This document shows positions 2,061 through 18,674 of a DNA stretch of 64,000 nt, piece by piece (positions within the stretch are counted from its first letter, which is position 1; the number at the start of each line of letters is the position of its first letter). The position numbers and the translations under genes were made by a program. The stretch is from contig NC_135184.1 in assembly GCF_041146795.1 (NCBI RefSeq), positions 5,531,467 through 5,595,466 of the forward strand, in the 5' to 3' direction. The notes under the pieces were generated by a model. The model ran no database searches and was not told the DNA's origin. It worked only from the letters and a program-made list of their open reading frames with translations. This stretch comes from Maylandia zebra (taxonomy: Eukaryota; Chordata; Actinopteri; Cichliformes; Cichlidae).

Positions 2061-2555
2061 AAACTGCTGCTTTGTGTTTCTTCTTCTGTCTGCAGTCGTT
2101 TATCTGCCGCGTTCCCTCCAGCTGGTTTATCTTAACAGGAATTGAAACACAGAAGAATAACAATAAAAAACAACCCATTGAGCACATGTGGTTTTATACA
2201 TTTCTTATATGTTAGATTTCTGTGGTTTGCAGTTCTTTAGATGTTATTCTGGGTTCTTTTGTGACCTGGATGAGTCACTGGTAGCTTCTTGGAAAGTTCA
2301 CCTCTCCGTTGTTCACTGGAGACCCAAAGCCTTACAAACATCTGCAGACTAATAGATGCCAATAACTTTGTAATTTTTCTCATAAGTTTTCTTGAGCGTC
2401 TTTACATCGTGGTGTGATGTTTGTTTTTCTGAGCTTTCAGCCTGCTTCACTTTGACAGACAGGTTCTGTTTGAGTGATTTCTGGATTTCTAACGAAATCA
2501 TCATTTATGAAACACTTTTTTACTTACTTGGGTTATTTTTTTTATCTAATATTAA

Positions 2556-3334
2556 AATTAGTTTGATCTTAAAATACAGGCCATATTAAAGAGAAATGGA
2601 AACTAGAACTAAATATTATTATCACTGATAATGTATGGGAAGAGATGTGTAAAACAAGGGAACAAGTAGTCAATTATGGAGAGTTTGACTGGAAATTTAA
2701 AATTTAGATTTTTTTAATACACCTCTTGTTATCTCCTCATATTGTAAGGAACCCAATGCAGAACTATGTTGGAGAAAATGTGGGGGAATAGGAGACGATT
2801 CACATATCTTTTGGGACTGTCCAATAATTCAAGGCTTCTGGATAAGAATCAAAGAAGAAACAGAGAAAATCCTACAAGTAAATCCTGCACTGAACCCCAC
2901 CATATTTCTCTTGGGAGTTATACCTAGAGAGAGGTATACCATAGATGAAAAATATATACTGATAGCTAAGAAAAGGATAACTGTGAAATGGAAACAAACA
3001 AACTCACCATCCATAACTCAATGGAAACAGAGACTGAAAAGAGTTCATACAATGGAAAGAATGACAGCAAGCCTGCAACTGAAGGTGGAGATCTTCCACC
3101 AGGGATGGATGTGTGGCCAGATACTTGGGTGAATGAAAACAAACTTTGGAACATTGTAATATAAAGCTATAAATCTCCCCTACGACATATCATTATATTA
3201 ATCGTGGTCTGTTTTTTTCCTCTCTCTCTCTTAAATGGTCTTATGTCAGAGAATGTTAATATGTTGCTTGTTTTTTTGGTTATTGCCACAAAAATTACTA
3301 AATAAAAAGTCCCCCCATAATTAGTTTGATCTTA
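2556..3334 (+). mobile_element. 5'-truncated LINE (L1/Tx1-like) with target duplication
   Basis: A 747-bp insertion (2,572-3,318) is flanked by a perfect 16-bp direct repeat at 2,556-2,571 and 3,319-3,334. The plus strand of about 2,710-3,132 encodes the C-terminal tail of an L1-type reverse transcriptase, recognised by a Cys-Trp-Arg-Lys-Cys-Gly motif followed by His-Ile-Phe-Trp-Asp-Cys (a CCHC-type finger) and a later FLLG motif. The reading frame ends at 3,132. A 3' UTR with AATAAA follows at about 3,300. The 5' truncation and long target duplication are typical of target-primed reverse transcription. The endonuclease and most of the polymerase are missing, so the copy is dead. Confidence 0.85.
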
Positions 3335-4923
3335 TTTAATGAATAAAAAATAAAGGGGGGTAAAATAAATCTTTATTTTTAGTGATCTCTCTGCTGATTT
3401 TCATAAATGTTCCCTCTGACATTTGGCCTCCATATTACAATAATAATTTAAAAGCCTAAAAGTAACTGAAACTACTAAAAACTACACTGAAAGAAGAAAA
3501 TTCACTCTGGAGACTAACTGACACTAAACTGACCTTAAAAAGTCAAAATGGAATGAAAAATAAAAACTAGAAAATTCAAAACTAATAACTCTAGTAAAAG
3601 GTCACCTCCATCTTTTATCTACAGTCCATGTATTCAGTAGCATGTCTTCTTTAAAAATAAGGCTTAATCTTTATTTAATTCAATAAATGTAATTAATATA
3701 TTACACACAATTAAAATAAAAGTCCCCCATTCAGAGTCTGTTCACCTTAATTAAGACTAGTAATTAGGTTTAAGAAAAAATAGAGATGAAAAAGGAATAT
3801 TTTTTTTAATAAACAGCTGACATTACCTGAAACAAACTGATATTTTCACATTTTATTTATTCATAAGGCTAATTTATGTCTAAGTTCTTATTCTGTTGAT
3901 CTCTTTAAGGTCGACGTTTGACATAAACAATTAAACAAAACCACGTAACCTTTAACATTTTAATGATTCTGTTATACAGACGGGCTTTTCTTTAAAAAAG
4001 AAAAAAAAGAATAAACATCCACTGAGCTTGCAAAGCATGCATGAAGATATGTACATTTGCATTAGAACGTTTCCCCGCCCGTCACAGCAGCTTTCGAGAG
4101 CAGCGTCCCTTCTGTTCAGCGCACTAAACCCAAATCTCCGAGTGTACATGCTGCACGTTTATGGCTCGTTTTCTTTAACACACAATCCTTCACTCTCGTT
4201 TCAAAACAAACAGTATCGTTCACATCTCTATATGTTACCTTAATATTCTTTCATGCACATTTTTAAGACATTGAAGTAATCATAAACATCTCTAAGAGTT
4301 TGACTTTCTCTTTCTGCTACAGTCTGGTCTGCAGGCTCAATACTGGCTGAACAATCCTTTCTGTGGCATCCATGAGCTTATTTTCCTTTGCAGTGACTCA
4401 ACCGAAGCACAAGAAAATGATCACAGAATTATAAGTAAACATTATGCTGGAAATAAGACATTAACACTCTGTTTTTAAATTGAAAGTGTAAATATATTTT
4501 TTTTTAAGTTTTAAAATGAATGTAATGTTTTGAATTATGGATGGATACTGATAAGGATGTAATGATTTATTTCTGATAAATCTCTTGTAAGGTCTCGAGT
4601 TCCTTAAAGGTGGAGAAACAAAACTCATACAGTAACCAGAGTTCATGACACTGAAACTTTTAAGTCGCACTTTCCCGGTCGCGGTGTACGTGCAGAAGGC
4701 TGATATCAGAACGTGAGCTGCATTTGTGGATATGAACAAATACAAACTAAAATGGCTGAAGGTGTAAGGCAGAAGTTTTCCCCTCAGTAGCACAACGCTG
4801 GAGGACCCAAAAATCCCTCCATGTTCAGGATCGGAGATCCTGTGGAGAAAAAAAACAGCACATCAGACTAATACTGTGGATACGAATCCTGACTGACGTC
4901 TGTCTTTACGTATTCTTACCCTT
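3335..4923 (-). other. Intergenic, probably including the stard3nl 3' UTR
   Basis: This AT-rich stretch lies immediately downstream (minus strand) of the stard3nl stop codon. No coding exon is recognised. Reversed AATAAA signals (TTTATT, for example near 4,567) could end a stard3nl transcript of ordinary length. The sequence does not fix the exact poly(A) site. Confidence 0.3.
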
Positions 4924-4988
4924 TTAAGTCACTTGTGTAATGAGCCCTTTTTCAGCTTCGTGTTTATCATCCAGCTCCTCTTCAGAGT
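4924..4988 (-). CDS. stard3nl: stard3nl (MENTHO), last coding exon
   Basis: This minus-strand exon encodes DSEEELDDKHEAEKGL and four more residues, then a TAA stop at 4,926-4,924. It lines up with the acidic C-terminal tail of vertebrate STARD3NL. The acceptor is TTCAG just above 4,988. The exon begins in phase 1 and joins the exon at 17,480-17,575 in frame, giving ...PPES-L-A-D-SEEE. STARD3NL is a late-endosomal MENTAL-domain protein that binds cholesterol and tethers endosomes to the ER through an FFAT-like motif. The sequence shows the exon, phase and stop; the function is family knowledge. The preceding intron would be about 870 bp without the 11.6-kb insertion. Confidence 0.8.
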
Positions 4989-5844
4989 CTGAACACGAAA
5001 GGGAAATCGGTCAGCGTTTTTATAGAAACACCACAGAAAATGTAGGACGATAAAAGAACGGTGGAGCCAGGATTTTAACTGCCAACCTTCAGATTAGAAG
5101 ACGACCCCTCTGAACCCGGACGGCTCAGGTATTCATGCCAACTAAATGTATTATCCTTAAAGACATTAATGGCATCTACAACTGCTTAATAGCAGATGAT
5201 GCCCTTCGCTCTTATTTTGAAAATTCAGCCACTGATAACCAGCCTGACAATTCCCGTCTTGTCAGGTTTCATCATTTTTAAATTTTCTTGTTTATTGACC
5301 TGTGTGAAACAACTGAGGCGCGCTTGTCTTAATCGTCTGCAGGAGGCTGCAGGTTCAAAGCAGCTGCAGGAGGCTGGTGTGAGAATAAACCTTCACTTTT
5401 AATTCTTCACATTTTACAGAAACGGGAATTATTTTTGTATTTTGTGTTATCGACTGCAGCTCTGCTTCTGCTCTGGAGAGTGTCTGTGTCTGCAAAGGAT
5501 GGGCCCACCCATTGTATGGAAGGCTCACTGCAGAGGCAGCTGAGTAATTGAATTATTTTCTAAGCAATAAGATGTCTGCAGATGAAAAAGCTCCTTTCAC
5601 TGTGCAGTGAAACAAATACTGAAGGAGCTACGCCACTCATTTCTGGGTGTGAAGTGCAAAGCTGGAAATCTAAAAACTCTAATAATAATAATAATGATGA
5701 CAATAAAATGAACTGTATATCTTCATATTTTGTGTCTGTACGCTCATTTAAATGGGAATGAAGAGTCAGAATCATCAGACTGAGCAGTCTGAAAGAGCGA
5801 CAGCTGAAGCGAGCGTGTCGGGTGTGTTTGGGTTTGTCTGATGT
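4989..5844 (-). other. Remainder of the last stard3nl intron
   Basis: This stretch lies between the last stard3nl exon and the left edge of the large insertion. It has no recognisable gene. A few AT-rich and CT-rich patches are present, including a short (AAT)n run near 5,680. Read with 17,469-17,479 it forms the original intron. Confidence 0.55.
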
Positions 5845-5851
5845 CAGTGGG

Positions 5852-7066
5852 CAACACGTTCTCACTCCCAACTCGTCAAACGTGTGACGCATGGTCAGGC
5901 TCCCTCTGCTGCACTTATGGACGCGCAGGGTACCCCTCTCGCGTCGGGAATTGACGTGAAGGGTCCTCCGATTGAAGAGATTGCCGCGGAAGTGCCTTTT
6001 GTCGGTATATTTAGACATTTTCCAAATCACATTGTAGTGACGTATACAGAACACAATAAATTATATAATGTAAACAACTACCTGAAAAACAGGTAGAACA
6101 ATACTTTTGTATGGTTTATTGCATTTACGGAGGGAGTGATGTATGCTGGGTAATGGCACAGCTAGCTACTGGGTGACTTTATTCACCCGCTTCGGCTGTT
6201 ATCAGTCCATACAATGGGCGTCATTAGCACAAACCAGTCCCATAGATATGGGCCATCTCCTGCTAGATTGTTCAGAAGGTTGTTCTCATCCATCCAGATG
6301 GAGGATCACTAACAGGAGCGTGGAAGACTCCAGAATCCACTCTGGCTGGAATCCGGTGGATACAGCAGTGTTTACAGGTAAGACCATTTAAACGGACAGC
6401 ATTTATAGAATGACTATTAAAAGTCAGCGAGTGTCAGTAATGTTAATGTGGTTATGTTAGTAATACACCGAGTGCTAATATAACAGCTTTAAGATGCATT
6501 TGTAGATGTTATTACGTGTTTTACCGTCTTTATGGTGCTAGCTTAAAGTTACGGTGTAAACGTTAGCTTATATTGGAGTAAAGCTGTTACTGTTTAAACG
6601 ATGTTAGCACAGAAATATTAGCTTCTGTCATGACTGATGAAGTTACTAGTTAATAAAGTTTCCAGTAAAGTGTTTAATCGCAGCCACAGATTGACAGCAA
6701 ATATCTCGATTAGCTTCAGTGCATCTGTAATAAATATGTGCAAGTTTCAGTGCTTCGTTTAAACTGTATGATACTTATACTGACCCAGGGTCAGTGTAAA
6801 ATACAATCCTAGCTGTGTGAACAAAGCCTGGCTCCTTTAATCCTGCATGACAAACCTCAGGATGCAGGTTATTATTACTCTTTCCTGCTGGCACACCTGT
6901 CACACCTGAGAGTCAGCTAGAAACTTACAGTGACGTGGACATCATGCAAAGACTGCCAGACTCTGTAATGCTGCAAATGATCAGTGACTCAGGTTAACAC
7001 TAAACTTTAAACGGCACCTCTGTGTCTCTGTGTGCTGAACATCTAGGATTGGGTCAGGCTGCATCA
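5852..7066 (+). repeat. Left long terminal inverted repeat
   Basis: This segment is the reverse complement of 16,248-17,461 with only scattered substitutions and a small indel around 6,365-6,372. The outer 200 bp are rich in CpG compared with the AT-rich surroundings. An inward-facing splice donor (CAG followed by GTAAGA) ends a candidate first exon at 6,377. Two short open frames here (5,884-6,096 and 6,143-6,391) have no recognised relatives and probably do not code for protein. Confidence 0.85.
6120..6377 (+). ncRNA. Candidate first exon inside the left inverted repeat
   Basis: The stretch lies just inside the CpG-rich outer repeat and ends in a good splice donor (GTAAGA from 6,378). The same exon and donor occur inverted in the right repeat (16,937 upward, donor at 16,936-16,932), so both ends could start transcripts toward the interior. 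The start of transcription is a guess. No convincing reading frame continues into a downstream exon. Confidence 0.3.
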
Positions 7067-7831
7067 GCTGAAGCTGTTATTTGTATATATCAGTATTTTT
7101 TATTCAGGTGTGGGGAAAATACGTAAGACTGCAGTGAAGCGATGCACCAGATTAATCCCTGGCCAAAGGTATCGTACTTAAATCAGACTACTGATCCAGC
7201 CACATCAGCCTTTTGTGAGGTCTGTTTAAAGTAGACTAAAAGTGAACTGCAGGTTCCTGAGAGGTGGACTGTGAGCACAGAAACACATGTTCATATATAC
7301 AGCTGCAGCAAACTTACATTAATTTTAAATAGATTTGTTACTCTGATGTCTGTCTCTGTGTTAGTCCTCTGACAGACTGGTGACCTGTCCAGGTGTGCTC
7401 TACCTATGACTACTGGGACAGGCTCTAGCCTCTGTAATAGAAATGTTCTGTTATTCTCATTTAAAGTATTTAAGTGCTTATGCATGTGCTTAGTTGTGAC
7501 ACTGTTACTGTTCAGTGAAAGTTTCTAAAACTAGATGAACTTACTTCAGCGTCAGCAGTTTGAGAAAACAACTCCCTTTACAGGTGCTGATAAGGCCAAG
7601 GGCACAAAACAGCTTAACCATTGATACGTTAGGTTTCATAGCGAGACACGTGAAGTGTGGTGTGATCAGTTTAACTTCCTCTTCCTTGGAATGCATAAAG
7701 GAGGAGGAGCACGACCTCTGTGGCAGCGCTGACATGACTGAACTGTGATGTTTGATGTGTGTTGGCGCAGTAATAAATAGCTTGATCACAGCTCTTTCTG
7801 TGTTGCAGACTTTATTTCAAAAATTCCACGA

Positions 7832-7866
7832 CCCCCCCCCCCCCCCCCCCACCCCCCCCACCCTCC
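7832..7866. repeat. Poly-C tract
   Basis: This is a run of about 20 C residues followed by shorter C blocks separated by single A and T bases. The minus strand is a G-rich tract able to form a G-quadruplex. It lies inside the long-inverted-repeat element and directly upstream of candidate exon 8,231-8,410. Confidence 0.9.
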
Positions 7867-8230
7867 CACTGTGAACCTGAATTGAATATTCAGAAGACAT
7901 TTGTTTAAATAGTTCTACAAATCTGAGCTGTCGGTGTGTCCTTGGATTGTGTGGTAATAATATTAGAGCCTGCAATCTTTCTTACTGAATCTCTACTATG
8001 AGTCATGTTACCTGAGATTAATTCTATGTTTACCTGTCAGCCTGGACGAATGTGCTGTGTGAAGGAAATTAAATTAAATCAGATCTGAACTGCGTACATT
8101 TAAGGAACCTGTTCATATTTAATTGAAATATGAACCAGTGTTTTTTTTTTTTGATTGCTGATTCCAAGAGAGTCTTTGTGGAAATCCTGTTTGGCTTTTT
8201 GTTATTTTAATTCTCTTCTCTGTTTTCCAG

Positions 8231-10940
8231 AACAGTTCTCCACAGTCACTGTCCACATGGGTCAGTGGGACCAAGAAGCACTCTGCTAATGTGGAACTCT
8301 GACCAGCAACATCCAGCAGGACCCAGACAGCGTTTTCTATCTCCCAGCTGGAGTTTTTGTTTGTCAGTGACTGGAGAGTCAGATTTTTGTTGAGCTTCAC
8401 ACTTGCAGAGGTAAGTCAGTTTGCAGAGATCCCTCCCACCCTGGCTTTTATGTGCTAGATTTCTTATCTGAAAGAGTAATATTTCAGTGACTGCTGCTTA
8501 TACCACAGGTTAATACTGTTACTGATCCCTGATAGGAGAATCATCAATTTTGCCAGCAAAGAAGCCTGGTGGATGTTTGTTTACAGTCTGATGATGGGAC
8601 ATCATGCTCTGCATCTTTAAAGTTTGTCTCTTGATTATTATTCATACCCAGTAATGTGAAGTATGCTCATATCTACTATAACTGAACCAACCTGGTGCTC
8701 TTCATTTATGGAGGCTGTTGAGTCTGAATGTTGGATGTTGTGTATCTCGTGTTCTCTGGGCTTTGTTGTCCTCAGTCTTTTTGCAGGATCAGAAAACAAA
8801 ACCAGGAGGCGCGTAAATGTTTCTTCTCCATGATGTTTCTTCAAATGTTTCTTCTGGATGATGATATGACTGTGACACGGGATGCCACCTTTGGTCTTGT
8901 GATGAAGCAAAGCTCAGGAAGAAGTGTGATTAAATGGTACCCACATGTGTGCTGCTGAGAAGGATGTACAGGGGCACCTGCAGCCAAATCCAAGCCTCAG
9001 GTTAGTTGTAGTTGCAGAACGCTATAGACTGAGACAGCTGAGGCATCAAATGTTTGATTAAACGGATGAAAAAGAGAAGTTTTTTCCCTATAATTATCAC
9101 TTCTTAAAATCTGTAGCAACTTCAAGTCTTTCAGCATGCTGAGCATGCTCAGAATGTGACAATATATTTTTGTTCAATATTTAATTTCTTTCAGTTGCAA
9201 TTGTTAAATGAAAAAAAATATATTCTTATAATTTAGCAAACTAATTTATCAAAAAAAATATATATACATATATCTGTAGTAGTTTTAATGAATTAATTTG
9301 ACACCTGTATTGAAAATACCATATTGTATTCATACAGAATCAGTATGGTATCATTGTTTGTCTGTTCACTGATTGTTGAAACTAAGAGCTACTTTGATCT
9401 GTTTAGATCTAAAGTATCCAAAGTTGAGCTCTGATGTTTCTTCACCCCTGTGTGTGTGATATGTGATTTCCTACATGCTGGCAGAGCAGCAGTTTGTGCT
9501 CACAGATGGTGACGGTGTGGAGAGACGGTGGTGTTTCCTCAGAAGAACCAGCAGAGTCACAAAGGACACCAGTCCATCTCACCACCTTGACTTGCTGACT
9601 GATGTTCGTCTGCACTGCACAGAGGAAATCAACTGACCGAGGTTTGTCCAGTGACGTGTTATGAAATGTATATTTGTTTTATGCTTACAGATATGTTTTT
9701 CTTGACAGAGGCTCTGCAGAGGTTAGACAAAGCAGAGAAAACATGTGCTTTACATTTTACTGTGATTTATTGAGATATTTGTTGCCTGATGTTCAGCAGG
9801 AATGGAGAAATAGAATCAAAGGGAGATGTTTTTGATGTTTTTGTAATGATGTAAGTAAATCTTCAATATTATTTATTTGCTTGGTTATATTAGGAGTGTT
9901 TCTGAGTGAGGGGGAGAGGAGTCATCATCCAGGTAAAGTGACGTAGATCAGTGGATACACTTGTCTCCCCTTTAAAGGAGACGATCCAAGTCATCCTTAA
10001 ATGTTAGTGCTTTCAAATACACAAACATTTTTAAAGGACAAAAATGAACATCCAACTTTGACTGTAACACAAAATAAATCTTTGCATGTGTGTTTTCAAA
10101 CTCTCAGATGGGCAGCATATCAGTCTTGGACTGTCTAACCTGCAGCACTGAATGACCACCGCACGAGCATGTTCCTGCAACATTCAGCATCTGATCCTTC
10201 ATCTGTGTGCTTCTGCTTTTGGTAAGTAGAGTTACCCAACTACAGTAACTCTAAACACATGCCATCCATTTCTAACGGCCTGGTTACTTCCTGTCAGTTA
10301 CTTTAGAAACCATGTGGTCACCTGACCTAACACTGTTTCTTCTTCTTCCCCTTAATGTTCAAGTGTCACATGTCAAACAGCTGGAGAGGAAACTACACCA
10401 GCGTACTGAGATGTTTCACCAACACGTGCCAGATGCTGTTCCTTCATGGTGACATCACCAGAGACAGCCCCGCCCACCTCAGGACCTCGCCATTGATCAT
10501 GATGATTATAATGATGACAGCGAGCGGAACTAAGACTGTAAAAATCCACGACCAGAATGTTTCTTTCTAATTATGAACGAATAGTGAGAGCCTCTTTCTG
10601 TGTTTTGCCTGTTTTGGGTTTTTACCTCATTTGTTACTAACAAAGTTCACAAACTCACACAGTTTACATTCTGTATGTTTCCATCTTTACCAGCCACACT
10701 CTAACTGCATTTAAGAAAATAATCCTTAGAAATCGTTGTTTTTCTCTTTTGTAATTGATGATAATTCAGTGAATATACTGCGCTGCTTCCTTTTATTGCG
10801 TCACACATTGCTTTAAGTTTTTCAGTGTCCAGTTATTTTTTACTGCTGTTTGAATTCTCTGTATGTTTGACCCTGTAGACTGTTTGATGGACTGCTTGTC
10901 TTCCTGTTTGTAACCGCCGCCTGTTTTTTAATAAAGATTT
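8231..10940 (+). ncRNA. Candidate spliced non-coding transcript (several exons)
   Basis: Several splice-site-bounded blocks lie in order on the plus strand. The best is 8,231-8,410, with acceptor TTTTCCAG and donor GTAAGT. Others start near 9,489 after GCTGGCAG, near 10,110 after CTCTCAG with donor GGTAAGTAG near 10,220, and near 10,365. A polyadenylation signal AATAAA stands at 10,930-10,935. All frames of exon 8,231-8,410 are interrupted, which suggests a long non-coding RNA. The chain could begin at the candidate exon in the left inverted repeat. Exon linkage is inferred and not proven. Confidence 0.35.
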
Positions 10941-11584
10941 GGATTTCTGACTTCAACACAGCCTCTGCGTGTCCTCCCTTTGTGTCCTCTTCCTCTGTGA
11001 ATGTGTTGCATGTGTCACAGATTCATTTTATTAACAGCTCTCCCACAGTGAGTTGCATCAGCATTCATTCACAGCACATTTCAGAAGGATTCAGATTAAT
11101 ACAGTGATCTTACAGTCAGAATGATCCTGACAGAGTGCCACTGTAAATGATCTTTCATCAGGTCAATTTTAAAGTTCAGTATTTCAAAGCAGGAGTTATG
11201 AAGAATCATGCTGGCATTAGGACTAATAATATGTACTTACAAAGTCAAAGTTTTTTAATTATGCTAGAATATTGGAAGACAATCAACTTTTAGTGTTTTC
11301 CGCATATTAATTATTCTGAAATAGAGACGGTGACCCTAACTGTACAGAAGCACTAAACAGCTGACAATCTAACAGACATCATTGGCCTGAGCTGTCATGC
11401 ACAGTGAGTCTGATCCTTTGCTGTGAGAGTCTGACAAGCATGTTTCTGGTCAGTTTGGAAGAAATAATATCACAATGTTGATCTTTCTTTCCAATATTCC
11501 TTCTCTTTTAAACTGTGATCAAAGGTACTTATGTTCACAGCATGTAATAATACTGACAGTCCAGGGCATTGTGGTCTGTTGAGC

Positions 11585-11605
11585 TAGGGTTAGGGTTAGG
11601 GTTAG
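11585..11605 (+). repeat. Short interstitial telomere-type repeat
   Basis: The sequence holds three and a half copies of TAGGGT in a row, the vertebrate telomere motif. It lies next to the 3' end of the arl6ip6 fragment. It may mark a repaired double-strand break or simply be a chance short array. Confidence 0.85.
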
Positions 11606-11629
11606 CAATTCAGACATATGTAATCAATA

Positions 11630-11857
11630 TTAAACGTCTCTGACGTGGGCCACTGTCCGCAGTGTTGGGAAATCCATACCAGGCTGGAATGAGTCAAGGT
11701 AGGTGAGCATCCACGAGAAGACACAGCAGATGCATCCTACTGACAGGACCAGGAGACTCCAGAAACCGAGCATCTTCTCTTCAGTGCCATCCACTCCTGT
11801 CACCCTCTCTGCCCACAGCTCTTTGAGTATGGGGTAGATAAGGGCGCAGAGAAACCC
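11630..11857 (-). pseudogene. arl6ip6: arl6ip6 fragment captured in the large element
   Basis: The minus strand reads open for about 75 codons to a TAA at 11,632-11,630. It contains YPILKELWAER, the acidic VDGTEEKMLGFWS stretch, a hydrophobic segment ending in CCVFSWMLTYLDSFQPGM, then FPTL. This is the order and spacing of the conserved C-terminal half of ARL6IP6, a multi-pass ER/inner-nuclear-membrane protein. The last transmembrane part (the GHSFHMGYS region in the human protein) is missing. The upstream edge near 11,858 lacks a proper splice acceptor, and no N-terminal exon was found. The fragment therefore appears truncated on both sides and is probably non-functional. Capture by the element is inferred from its position. 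Confidence 0.75.
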
Positions 11858-14800
11858 TTATTACTAATTCGTATTATAATTCAATTTCCATGAAATATTC
11901 ATATTCAGTATCGGTCCTTTTATATTATAACCACGTATCCACCCAGGCTCATGGTGGGGCAGGGCTCTGTCCTGGGATGCTTGAGTACAAGGTAATGTAC
12001 ACCCTGACCAGGTATCCAGTCTGTCAGAATTGTTTTCAATATTTGGTTCAAAAACATGAGTGACAACAGAAATCCAACTAGGATTCTTGCATATGATGAA
12101 TGAAGTCTGTCTTTGACTGTATTGTCCAGCTGATCCATCAAACCCCCAGCAGGTGAACCTTATTCATGACATAACACGGCAACAATGTAAAAAATTAAAC
12201 AGCAACAGTCTAAATGTAAAGTGCATTCTAAACTCCTCTTCAATAAATCATATGCAAAGAGTCATTCAGGACTGTAAAACGTGAACTACAGAACCCAGAG
12301 TCTTCATCATTAAATCTCTGGTTGCTTCATTTTTCTATCCTATATCAGATACTTTAAGGTTAGGTTAGGTAAACTTGCATTCTCATGGTGAGGCAAAGTG
12401 CTTTATGTGTGTGCGTGTCATGAACGGCTATAAAAGGCCTATAATTAAAGAACAAAGCGGGGTTTGAGTTCGAGTTGCGGCAGACTGTCACTACTTGTAA
12501 ATGGAACGCAGCCTTCCTACGGCGGACAGCTAATAACAGGAATCGGACGCGGTCCACCCAAGTCCACAGCAACCACCATAGCAACCGCCTAGCATGACCT
12601 TAAAAACACATTCTGTCTTCATAACTATCAAAAACGTAAAATGATTTGCAAAGTGTTTAAGTGTTACAGCTGCAGAGAGCTATGGCGGTATCTTTGGAAG
12701 CTGTTTACATAGCTAATAATATACGATGTAACCATGGAGACAGTCAGTCACGTGAGCTAGCGGTGCATGTTTACTACAGTGAATAAGGTGATTGCGTCCA
12801 CACGCTGCAGGGGGTAAAGACATTACTTCAATATTGTTTTATACTGATATATATTTGCCTTCTGTTGACCATCACCTCAGGTTCACCATTACAGTTTCAG
12901 CATACAAATGCACACTGTCTAAACACATTCAAAAACTCATGTCTCAGAAATAAGCACAGATGTTCATGTTTGTCATTAGTTTTATTTGTAAGAAAATTAT
13001 GAACTTCATATTGTGCATTAAATAAAAGAACATTTCACAACTCGTGAGTCAACAGAAACAGGTAACAGAAATGTCTCTAATGTGTACAGTGTAGTGTAAG
13101 CATTAAAAGATCATAAAGGAAACACTAACATTTATGTGAAACTAATTGTAATAAAAAAATGAACAGGTGGTTTATAGATTTAAAAGAAAGAATCTGAAAA
13201 CAACACTTTTTTGGTCTAAGTGATCAAAGTAGAAAACAGAACTGATGTTCAAAAACAAACCGTAGCTGCACTAATATTACACATCTCCATTGTTGTGGTG
13301 AACAGACATGTTGCTTTTAAAACCACATGCAGTGTGTGACCGTGACTGTTCACTGAGACCATGAACGCCACTTCGCTGAAGCCTTCGCCTTCTTCTTCTT
13401 CTTCTTCTAAATTGGAAGCAGAAGGAGCACGAGCTGCTTTGATCTACTGAAATGAAAAAGCAGAACATCTGAGCTGAAACCAGTCAGCTGAAATCATTAA
13501 GACAGGAACAAATTCAATGCAGTGTCTCAGGTGGCTTAGCCTGTTACAACTGTTGATACAAGCTAAATACGGTTAACACACAGTGTCAGGGAGCTCCAGT
13601 GTGGGAACTAGTGGCTTTAGGTTTGTAGTCATTTAACTTTCATCCATTCATTCATTTAATTCAGGAGGAAGAAATGCCAGGTTGGTGCAGGCTGGTTACA
13701 TGCATTTGGTCCCATGCAGTCTTTAATTAAATGACTTGGTTCATTTTATGGCTGGGCTGTATGTGGGGTTATATCATGTTATTTGGGCAGGAGTACCTGT
13801 CCCCTGTTAGACTTAGAAAGTTTCTCCATAAGTAGAGTTTCTAACTCTTCTAGCACATCTGTGGCTGGCAGCTTTTTTGGTGGCTCTTTTTACCCCACAC
13901 TGGTTGTGAGTGTGTAAATAGCCCCACTAGTTCTTTTGGGTTGCAGTTAACTTGGGAGGAAGGGGTGGGTATGCCATGACTAGATGAATAACAATTATCT
14001 GGGATACATAAATTTCATAATGCATGCATGTATCTCTATAAACCTGCCTGAGGGCTGCCATTTTTACATTCAGTTATTTCTCTGTTGAATCTAAATAATG
14101 AATGTGTTACAGTTAAACTGACACTGATCAGTGTAAATGGCTCATTGGGACACAGAAACCTTTAAATTAAACCTGATATCGAGTGTCAAACCATATCAAA
14201 GCTGTAAAAGCTGTTTACAGTCATAATTTATAAAACTATGATTGTAAATAAATTCAAACAAGTGAGCTTTTCTCTTTGTGCTGAATATCAACACTGTGAT
14301 TTCTTAGACTGTAAGCTTTACTTTAGCACAACCACTTGTAGAAGCTGCCACTCCAAATGTCTTTGATAACAAGAAAAAAATACCTTTTCAGTCCACGGCC
14401 TGAAGTTCTTCTCCGACATCTTCTGCAATCGGCTTTGTCTGCTGGTTTGAAGACAATAAACCACAAAAAAGATGATTTAGTCACTTTGTCTGTGTCATGC
14501 AGCTCGAATGTGTCGTGTAAAGATGTTGAATAGCCGTCGTTATCCCTCTGCTGTGTCAGTAGGATTGTACTGTACAGCATCTCATTGATATGTGAGGAAT
14601 GCTAATGTAACACGATAACAGACTTACATCATTAAAACATAAAGGGCAGGAGATATTTAGATATTTTTATATTTATATTACATTTTATAGCTGACGGATA
14701 TTACTAAATAGATAGAATTTACTAAATAGCTGGATGAAGATGAAAAATATGTCTATAATAACAAATGACCATGAGAGCCAGTAGAATTAATTCAGCTGGA

Positions 14801-16247
14801 CACTCGAAAGACGTCCTTAAATGCTCTTTAAGTGGCAGAACAAACGAACAAACAGTTAATTGCTTACTTGAGATGAAATCTGCTCAGCTACTTTGAAAAC
14901 AGCTTCTAACTGGTTCCTCCTTTAACAGGATGACGGCTCAGGGGTAAGGCCATCATGCAGTCCAGCAACCTTTATGGTTCTGCTTTGATTCACCAGGAAC
15001 TATTAGGGAAACCTTCCAGCGCCTCCTGTGAAAGACACAGGCATAAACATACAAACATTTATTAACATGTTCCACAGTCTTCCAGTTTGATTTTCTCATC
15101 CTGTGGACAACAACGTACATGGATGCAGGTTTATTGTTAACTTTTGTAAGGTTTATTTAGTGAACATATCCAGCTGCAGCTCCACTGTGATCCTGAGCTG
15201 GATAAGCACTTAAGGAAATGTGTCAATAAATGGACAAACATCAACTTACTATATTTATCCAAACAGATGGGACCAATAATGCTTCACTGAGTCAGAGACT
15301 TTAATGTCTCTTCTATGTAAGAATGTCTCGTGCTGATATACCTGCAAACTTGACAACAAAGGTTTTTCAGACTACATGTAGCTGTCCTCTATGTCAGCTA
15401 ACACATTTACATTTATGTCACACTTATTTCTGCTTTCCCATTTTATAATTATTACTTACATTTTGATTAGATACCTTGAGTTTGTAAATGATCAGATTAC
15501 ATAATTGGAATACAATGTATCCAATTCAGGGTTGCAGGAGGATGAAGCCTATCCCAGCTGATACAGGACAAAGACAGGCTGCCAGTTTATTGCAGGGCTA
15601 ACACAATATGTGTAACAGAAAATCCACTTAAATGTTTTATATTTGTTATAATAATCATAATTATGACTATTATTTAAAGGTTTCTTTAAATAATACATTT
15701 TGATTTTTATAACCTCTAAAATATAAACCTGAGCTGTTTCAGATTCTGACCTCTGACCTCAGTGACCTGGCTGTGTCCTCACTGCAGCTCCCTCTTGGAA
15801 GTACGTCTGCTTCTTGTCTACCCCCAGTGTTGACCGCCTGCCCTTGATATCACGTACTGTAACTGAGGAACAAAAAAGGACAAACACTTGCCTTCATTTA
15901 AGAAGTACATTCATACAGAGGTAATCTATGGAAACACACTAGTTCAACCTTTGGGAGAAATCAGTTCCTGTGAAACATTTCTGTAAATGAACATCATGTG
16001 GAGAATGAATGAAATGAGTTCTTCCGGTGACTCAGCAGTCCCACACTGACAAATGACATCTAGTTAAACTATTAAGCATATTTGCTCTTCTGAAATCTGT
16101 GTTAAACAACAACAAACATAAATTAGTAACAAAAATACAGCTGAGTAGAGGCTTTACAAACCACCAGCAGCCATAATGCTAAATTTTAATCTTCAAATGT
16201 TTCTGAGCCGTCTTCAACCTGCTTTTAACACATTAAAGTCCCACAGT
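11858..16247. other. Interior of the large element, right part; nothing firmly identified
   Basis: No transposase or other known protein domain was recognised. On the minus strand a few short open stretches follow acceptor-like sites, near 15,868 (after TTTGTTCCTCAG), 15,032 (after TCTTTCACAG), 14,443 and 13,410 (a lysine-rich run ending in a stop). They do not assemble into one clear reading frame. A CpG-richer patch lies near 12,460-12,600. Possible minus-strand poly(A) signals occur near 12,980. Confidence 0.3.
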
Positions 16248-17461
16248 CAATGCAGCCTGACCCAATCCTAGATGTTCAGCACACAGAGACACAGAGGTAC
16301 TGTTTAAAGTTTAGTGTTAACCTGAGTCACTGATCATTTGCAGTATTACAGAGTCTGGCAGTCTTTGCATGATGTCCACGTCACTGTACGTTTCTAGCTG
16401 ACTCTCAGGTGTGACAGGTGTGCCAGCAGGAAAGAGTAATAATAACCTGCATCCTGAGGTTTGTCATGCAGGATTAAAGGAGCCAGGCTTTGTTCACACA
16501 GCTAGGATTGTATTTTACACTGACCCTGGGTCAGTATAAGTATCATACAGTTTAAACGAAGCACTGAAACTTGCACATATTTATTACAGATGCACTGAAG
16601 CTAATCGAGATATTTGCTGTCAATCTGTGGCTGCGATTAAACACTTTACTGGAAACTTTATTAACTAGTAACTTCATCAGTCATGACAGAAGCTAATATT
16701 TCTGTGCTAACATCGTTTAACCAGTAACAGCTTTCCTCCAATATAAGCTAACGTTTACACCGTAACTTTAAGCTAGCACCATAAAGACGGTAAAACACGT
16801 AATAACATCTACAAATGCATCTTAAAGCTGTTATATTAGCACTCGGTGTATTACTAACATAACCACATTAACATTACTGACACTCGCTGACTTTTAATAG
16901 TCATTCTATAAATGCTGTCCGTTTAAATGGTCTTACCTGTACACACTGCATATCCACCGGATTCCAGCCAGAGTGGATTCTGGAGTCTTCCACGCTCCTG
17001 TTAGTGATCCTCCATCTGGATGGATGAGAACAACCTTCTGAACAATCTAGCAGGAGATGGCCCATATCTATGGGACTGGTTTGTGCTAATGACGCCCATT
17101 GTATGGACTGATAACAGCCGAAGCGGGTGAATAAAGTCACCCAGTAGCTAGCTGTGCCATTACCCAGCATACATCACTCCCTCCGTAAATGCAATAAACC
17201 ATACAAAAGTATTGTTCTACCTGTTTTTCAGGTAGTTGTTTACATTATATAATTTATTGTGTTCTGTATACGTCACTACAATGTGATTTGGAAAATGTCT
17301 AAATATACCGACAAAAGGCACTTCCGCGGCAATCTCTTCAATCGGAGGACCCTTCACGTCAATTCCCGACGCGAGAGGGGTACCCTGCGCGTCCATAAGT
17401 GCAGCAGAGGGAGCCTGACCATGCGTCACACGTTTGACGAGTTGGGAGTGAGAACGTGTTG
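16248..17461 (-). repeat. Right long terminal inverted repeat
   Basis: This is the inverted partner of 5,852-7,066. Its candidate exon (16,937-17,170 and beyond) has the same inward-facing donor, read here on the minus strand. The high similarity of the two repeats over 1.2 kb implies recent insertion or ongoing homogenisation by gene conversion. The outer end touches the CAGTGGG duplication at 17,462. Confidence 0.85.
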
Positions 17462-17479
17462 CAGTGGGAGGAAACAGAC

Positions 17480-17575: not shown

Positions 17576-18123
17576 CTGAAACACAGAAGGATGAAGAAAG
17601 CAGGAATAACGGCATCAGCAGGACATCAATGAGGTTAGAATAACATAACAGTGGTGAAACAACTTTCATTTATCAGGTGAGTAAAGATTTTGTTCATAGC
17701 ATATAATTATTAATAATTACCTGAGAAATAGCAACAGGAAGCTGATGCATTACACTTTTTACTCTAACATTATAATAAATAATTATAATATTAACTTCTT
17801 ATCCCATGATCATATATTTTAAATAAAACAACTGAATAAAATTACTCAGTATGTAGCTTTGAATGTTCACCAGCAGGTGGCAGTGTTTCACCAGAGCGCC
17901 TGCTGCTGTTCTTTATCGTTTTCTTGTTTCTTTTTCATTCTCCACTCAGAGGCTCTTGAGTCATAGTACTTGTTTTTTCACATTCTTTTGCTAACTTAAA
18001 GGAAGGTTTTAAAAGGAACCTGTAAGGTAAACGATCTGTTGACAGAGATCACAGCAGTGACAGCAGCAGTACTGCAACAGTAATGAAGGTGCCTTTTTTA
18101 TTATTAGCTCAGTTGAGACTCAC

Positions 18124-18241
18124 TGTTTTCGTCTTCGATCTCCTGAGGCAGGACCTTGAAGTCGAGCAGCCACGTTTCTATCCAGGCCAGAACGAAGGAG
18201 ATGATGGGCAGCAGGTACCCAAAGGCCCCCAGACTCAGCAG
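18124..18241 (-). CDS. stard3nl: stard3nl, exon for the last MENTAL transmembrane segment
   Basis: This minus-strand 118-bp exon has acceptor CTTGTGTAG and donor GTGAGT. It encodes LLSLGAFGYLLPIISF, then VLAWIETWLLDFKVLPQE and IEDEN. It matches the fourth transmembrane helix and the conserved ETW-LDFKVLPQE end of the MENTAL domain in STARD3NL. It starts in phase 0. The exon encoding the two central helices, expected upstream on the minus strand, was not found between here and 30,963. Confidence 0.87.
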
Positions 18242-18674
18242 CTACACAAGAAACACACACGTCCCAGTATGAATATGTAATTCTACACAAAGCATACAAA
18301 ATCTGACCATTTAAAATTTAGAAGGTGCAAAAACAAATATTTATTATTGTTAAACAGCAGCAATTACAGGTTTTCCTGTACAGGGAGTTTGCTTCACTTC
18401 CTTAAATCCTCATACATGTTTGCATCGCCATCGAGGAATATGGAGCAAAGACTGCAGAAGAAAATTAACTCCAACAACAAACTGTCCTCTAAGAGGTTTT
18501 TGTGTGTGGACATTGACACCAATACTAAAATAAATAAAGATATTATTAGAAGTAAAAAACTAAAGTCAGTGCAACATTTTTGTTACAAATAATGAAAATA
18601 TTAGATGTTGTCAGGTTTCTTAGATCAAAGCTTTAAGTACCACCCTGTTTTCTGAGGTGCTGTTAGTGTGTGTG

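Follow-up and report, generated by a model that had tools for sequence, protein, structure and literature searches.

An 11.6-kb element with kilobase terminal inverted repeats in Maylandia zebra belongs to a recently mobile transposon family, probably of the KDZ kind

To our knowledge, transposons of the Kyakuja-Dileera-Zisupton (KDZ) kind are little characterised in vertebrates. Large non-autonomous transposons as such are ordinary. Here, we analysed a stretch of 64,000 nucleotides from the cichlid Maylandia zebra (contig NC_135184.1; the window in the following), which contains an element of 11,610 bp with long terminal inverted repeats (TIRs) and a 7-bp target site duplication (TSD). In the excerpts used for comparison, Zisupton and a Dileera family are given 8-bp TSDs. 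Two fungal Kyakuja families are given 7-bp TSDs, CA..TG termini and TET/JBP genes, and that text describes them as having no TIRs (PMC12730594). Zisupton is multi-exonic, and an excerpt on nematode Zisupton reports TIRs and no detectable TSDs (PMC9297572).

Based on these excerpts, the element resembles Kyakuja, which belongs to the KDZ transposase family, in its 7-bp TSD and its 5'-CA..TG-3' termini. It differs in its 1.2-kb TIRs, as opposed to none in the excerpted Kyakuja description, in the lack of a TET/JBP domain in Pfam scans of its interior and in its animal instead of fungal host. Zisupton, the KDZ superfamily of fish, is likewise a KDZ transposon with TIRs according to the same partial sources. 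However, its TSD has 8 bp, a length not shared by this family, in which 14 of 16 copies have 7 bp. Of the KDZ lengths given in the excerpt (7 bp in Kyakuja, 8 bp in Zisupton and Dileera; PMC12730594), these copies thus have the former. Because the TSD and ends are Kyakuja-like, yet the TIRs are of kilobase length and the 8-bp duplication of Zisupton was not found, we file the element only as KDZ-type and leave its lineage open. Among the papers listed by our literature search, outside which Repbase and Dfam lay, none was seen to describe a fish KDZ element with a 7-bp TSD; we do not claim its absence from print. Two further systems are similar in part. Galileo (P superfamily, Drosophila) has long TIRs and a 7-bp TSD, but no P-type transposase is linked to the present family among the termini listed. 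In MuDR/Mutator-like elements two convergent genes start from long TIRs, as may also hold here, but their transposase and their TSD length (9 bp) are different.

A recently mobile family of 11.5-kb units

The element proper occupies positions 5852-17461 of the window. CAGTGGG abuts both ends (5845-5851 and 17462-17468), so the span 5845-17468 given in the original prediction is correct for the element plus both duplications, but not for the element alone. The inverted arms are identical between 5851-6362 and 16951-17462 (100%) and nearly so between 6365-7064 and 16250-16949 (99%). This alignment yields TIRs of about 1,213 bp, the left one at 5852-7064 (+ strand, first bases CAACACGTT) and the right one at 16250-17461 (- strand, last bases AACGTGTTG). 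Over 599 aligned outer bases, the two arms of the window copy have 2 mismatches. The long near-identical repeats, the exact outer ends and the flanking CAGTGGG had all been predicted and were confirmed by arm alignment and end reading.

The genome searched comprises 962 Mb in 63 contigs, which are referred to here as C1, C22 and so on. Searching with the terminal 27-mer at up to 3 mismatches revealed 141 forward and 170 reverse places (311 in total). A reversed control sequence gave 0 + 0. From 100 of the 311 places, 20 convergent pairs of termini within 30 kb were obtained, and five pairs from a separate terminus search completed the set of paired copies (n = 25). The family thus has at least 25 paired copies of 8.0-25.0 kb, 18 of which measure 10.7-11.6 kb.

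Sixteen copies were read at both ends. A perfect 7-bp duplication was found in 14 of them, and all 14 sequences are different. These copies are the window copy and those at C10:6.16, C4:22.60, C19:0.65, C1:38.80, C2:0.84, C2:25.14, C2:25.44, C3:16.11, C3:19.55, C3:19.60, C13:23.10, C3:22.25 and C8:22.53 Mb. The first base of the TSD is G in 9/14. Of the two copies without a perfect TSD, the one at C17:36.95 Mb has an altered first end base, and the one at C3:34.16 Mb (C3:34157155-34174733; L042, L043) has mutually inverted flanks (249/250 bases). The arms of the latter are identical over 600 bases, and the locus has the appearance of a palindromic rearrangement at an element copy.

Divergence within the family is low. 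In ten other whole copies, 0 to 5 differences per copy were counted between the two arms over the outer 600 bp. Left arms differ between copies by 1.5% on average, and aligned pieces of the ten copies are 94-99.6% identical to the window copy. Longer copies were considered as autonomous members. This was rejected, since in all five that were read (C2:0.84, C4:22.60, C13:23.10, C17:36.95 and C3:34.16 Mb) the extra length is accounted for by nested insertions.

The same 1.2-kb TIRs therefore bound units of about 11.5 kb at many unrelated sites, each with its own 7-bp duplication, which means that the unit moves as DNA from exact terminus to exact terminus. The element is a copy of a multicopy, recently mobile DNA transposon family and moved as one unit. 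This agrees with the original prediction, which had proposed joint movement and a large long-TIR family and had named the lack of a second locus as grounds for refutation; further copies with the same ends and 7-bp duplications were looked for and found.

Exact termini also occur in a row on C3 between 53.34 and 60.04 Mb. All 25 are on the - strand and form a segmental series, one member of which (L058) was read and retains roughly 1.5 kb from the right part of the element plus 71 bp of its end.

Coding remnants and a candidate KDZ helper

We consider the element to be a large non-autonomous transposon of the KDZ kind that is moved in trans, with a probability of roughly 0.77. The assignment is based on the combined links described below and not on the transposase relic alone.

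Between the TIRs there is no frame of 100 aa or more. The Pfam scan covered 130 of the 144 listed frames (at least 38 aa); the other 14 are right-TIR frames. In these 130 frames and in a six-frame translation with X at stops, only ARL6IP6 exceeded the Pfam cut-off and no intact transposase was found, in agreement with the predicted non-autonomous state. The 130 frames gave their best matches to ARL6IP6 (E 4.8e-9) and to KDZ transposase (E 0.0011). A further 12 families at E 0.002-0.1 were taken as chance. The KDZ match is a weak C-terminal relic at 9490-9603 (+ strand; PF18758 positions 174-211 of 217), below the Pfam gathering score, within an open frame at 9460-9633. The second remnant is an ARL6IP6-like fragment (PF15062) at 11654-11857 (- strand), 68 aa of an open 75-aa frame with the domain match at about 11660-11764. 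The earlier statement that no transposase is visible thus remains valid for intact frames but misses the KDZ relic, and with a relic on the + strand and an ARL6IP6-like fragment on the - strand the interior is not featureless. A tRNA scan of the element gave nothing, Rfam gave nothing above the gathering score, and a search of solved structures gave no match.

The two remnants occur together throughout the genome. ARL6IP6 was found at 69 places, and a 56-aa relic query returned 129 rows, 110 of which were used for the comparison (the other 19 are second pieces of a listed copy or have E >2e-5). The relic lies within 6 kb of 61 of the 69 ARL6IP6-like places, mostly 2.1-2.5 kb away, and the orientation is convergent in 61/61. 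Among the 25 paired copies, 24 have an ARL6IP6-like place inside (the exception is C3:22.25 Mb). A diverged relative, located at C22:41.70 Mb (relic 73%), has the same layout. Given the convergence at 61/61, the head-on layout of two genes is a trait of the family. Where at least 50 of the 56 residues match, no stop interrupts the relic frame at 65 of 66 places, although, in view of the low divergence, this is only mild support for a coding past. The ARL6IP6-like frame has 5 synonymous and 8 nonsynonymous variant codons among 10 copies. A recent capture of a host ARL6IP6 gene is not claimed, because no clear host gene was seen beside element copies and relatives.

A candidate helper was found in the same genome. 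One of the 21 KDZ places (C22:19570286) lies inside an element of 16.45 kb at C22:19558764-19575214. Its KDZ core is above the family cut-off and stands 4.6 kb from the right end, on the inward-reading strand. By simple arithmetic, about 4e-4 KDZ places would be expected by chance per 16.45 kb. Over 517 bp, both ends of the C22 element share 99% identity with the divergent TIR subtype of the locus L010 (C1:35396790). The L010 arm, in turn, has the outer 27 bp exactly as in the window arm and matches that arm at 83% identity along the first 336-358 bp. Going inward from L010, a second KDZ place (C1:35412421) is reached after 15.6 kb. The C22 element is known from terminus and profile matches. 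The longer autonomous relative that had been suggested was not among the five longer copies read, and the C22 element with its related TIRs and KDZ core is a candidate for it. A weak match of the relic itself was obtained at C3:9761796 (45%, E 0.066); a KDZ core on that strand lies 1.3 kb upstream of it. A multi-exon transposase, as described for Zisupton in the available part of PMC9297572, would be compatible with a gene of which just one short piece is seen. The original prediction had spoken of a family that may be undescribed; with several lines in favour of KDZ, its superfamily need not be an unknown one.

Several observations weigh against this assignment. The relic scores 12.9 bits against a gathering score of 26.6, and about 0.14 chance matches are expected over 130 frames. 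Its E-value of 0.0011 as a lone frame among the 130 rises to 0.09 within a 1021-aa frame, and no KDZ core was found in the element interior at E up to 5. Among the ten other whole copies, the relic is open over at least 50 residues in three (C4, C3:22.25 and C3:34.16); it is frame-shifted in C10, limited to about 30 residues in C1, C2, C8, C13 and C17, and without a row in C19. At 8 of the 69 ARL6IP6-like places there is no relic within 6 kb. The C22 and C1 cores each read with one TGA. Only 2 of the 6 loci found with the C22/L010 TIR subtype have a KDZ core inside; none was found near those at C17:18.68, C4:9.09, C21:3.01 and C21:28.49 Mb. Of 938 candidates, 40 places were scored, and these do not include the right end on C1. 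The relic query gave no match in the C22 element. Three further places with the E 0.066 score have no KDZ core listed beside them.

Other copies of these remnants were also seen. Facing ends of another TIR subtype (L037) lie 38, 33 and 24 kb apart at C15:32420105-32458185, C9:2708521-2741590 and C19:8529897-8553670; a relic lies between them in the C15 and C19 pairs, and all three pairs are possible larger relatives. A relative of the element forms a cluster of near-identical copies at C20:12.45, 17.54-17.85 and 36.24 Mb and on C39, with an ARL6IP6 match that runs over two stops. The element region 10331-10567 has a diverged relative (46-48%) in at least 32 near-identical copies (C2:4.9-13.4 Mb, C33, C3:63.5-64.0 Mb and C4). 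Its copies at C4:2128814 and 2189951 stand 6.0 kb upstream of KDZ cores, where the layout of the window predicts a downstream position. Relic copies of 94-98% identity with an open 66- to 68-aa frame form outward-facing pairs 130-290 kb apart on seven contigs (C1:34.80/35.08, C3:49.39/49.64, C6:8.28/8.44, C9:6.25/6.49, C17:3.46/3.75, C21:31.89/32.02 and C22:31.59/31.80 Mb). Element-like DNA continues for about 1 kb downstream in 6 of the 7 pairs (the C3 pair is not among the matches listed), and similar single copies are present on about nine more contigs, mostly at one locus each. The pairs are perhaps flanks of centromeres or of a very large repeat.

Other superfamilies and modes of spread

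Other superfamilies with TSDs of 6-7 bp, namely Dada or a group like hAT7, would account for the length of the duplication. Dada is described as making 6-7 bp TSDs in fish and hAT7 as making 7-bp TSDs in fungi, in the sections of PMC8869645 and PMC12730594 used here. On the other hand, Dada targets mainly small RNA genes according to the same section of PMC8869645, whereas the 14 TSDs of this family vary (scanning for tRNA and Rfam families was confined to the element). No hAT or Dada transposase came up when the interior was scanned with Pfam, with no genome-wide hAT/Dada search made. We regard this origin as unlikely.

A non-autonomous, Galileo-like element of the P superfamily is slightly less probable again. 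Galileo-like P elements have kilobase TIRs together with CA..TG ends and TSDs of 7-8 bp, and with respect to the 7-bp TSD and the long TIRs the P superfamily fits as well as KDZ does. However, the Pfam scans of the interior gave no P-type frame, and of the 6 genomic matches to the P-type RNase H domain (PF21787), which fall at 4 loci, none lies near a terminus among those listed.

We also considered descent from a Polinton/Maverick-like element, which is very improbable. Such a link is suggested by L036 and L037 (C3:20.61 and 20.65 Mb), where a decayed integrase core of virus-like (Polinton-type) DNA stands 0.7 kb inward of a related TIR that is similar along about 406 bp. Yet a comparison by eye put none of the 59 integrase places within the 25 paired copies, and two of them (C3:19610379 and C3:16104681) are located 1-2 kb beyond the exact ends of intact copies. 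Polintons have a 6-bp TSD. The 7-bp TSD and the CAAC ends of the present family are unlike Polinton. An open-frame relative of the L036/L037 integrase is present at C8:22461315; as a Polinton link it was rejected, because the terminus at C8:22478285 is that of a family member carrying a nested insertion.

Spread by segmental duplication in place of transposition is equally improbable: the 25 same-strand termini on C3 at 53-60 Mb, the C20 and C39 clusters and the inverted-flank copy at C3:34.16 Mb speak for it, but 14 of 16 copies have their own, differing perfect 7-bp duplications, which refutes it for those 14.

Proposed transcripts, mechanism and significance

Each TIR contains a splice-donor-like site. 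In the left TIR, ACAG|GTAAG at 6374-6382 (+ strand, GT at 6378) would end a putative first exon, and its mirror in the right TIR lies at 16933-16941 (- strand, GT at 16937). Nine of the 10 other whole copies have exactly this site in each arm; in the C17 copy this applies to the high end only. Because each TIR has such a site, the sequence suggests two convergent transcripts that start in the TIRs. An AATAAA at 10930-10935 (+ strand), one of many such hexamers, may be the poly(A) signal of the + strand unit. The insertion had been placed in a stard3nl intron. To the right, a MENTAL-domain exon (stard3nl or stard3) is indeed present at 18098-18256 (- strand, E 1.5e-12), 0.6-0.8 kb from the element; to the left, a scan of the - strand over 2100-5842 gave no Pfam exon.

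We propose that a KDZ transposase from a related element would act in trans and bind the shared outer TIR. It would cut at CAACACGTT / AACGTGTTG and insert the unit, by cut-and-paste, into a 7-bp staggered cut. The family may descend from an autonomous element with two convergent genes, each with its promoter and first exon in a TIR. In the window copy, the transposase gene would have shrunk to the C-terminal relic and the second gene to the ARL6IP6-like fragment. More tentatively, and with the odds against it, the family could represent a separate vertebrate KDZ lineage. Such a lineage would combine a Kyakuja-like 7-bp cut and CA..TG ends with kilobase TIRs that serve as twin promoters for two convergent genes. 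Its ARL6IP6-like membrane-protein gene would be a long resident and not a recent host capture, and the lineage would still mobilise 11.5-kb passengers without an enzyme.

Three points stand out: a 7-bp TSD and kilobase TIRs are combined with KDZ in an animal, the passenger has a size of 11.5 kb, and the head-on gene pair is conserved. A family that is recent and multicopy, has clean ends and 7-bp duplications and shares its genome with a candidate helper would allow tests of the KDZ cutting reaction and its end requirements. It would also show that a passenger of about 11.5 kb can be mobilised without its own enzyme. Should the TIRs be promoters that carry a splice donor, which their sequence suggests, each copy could also influence transcripts of the host, such as those beside stard3nl.

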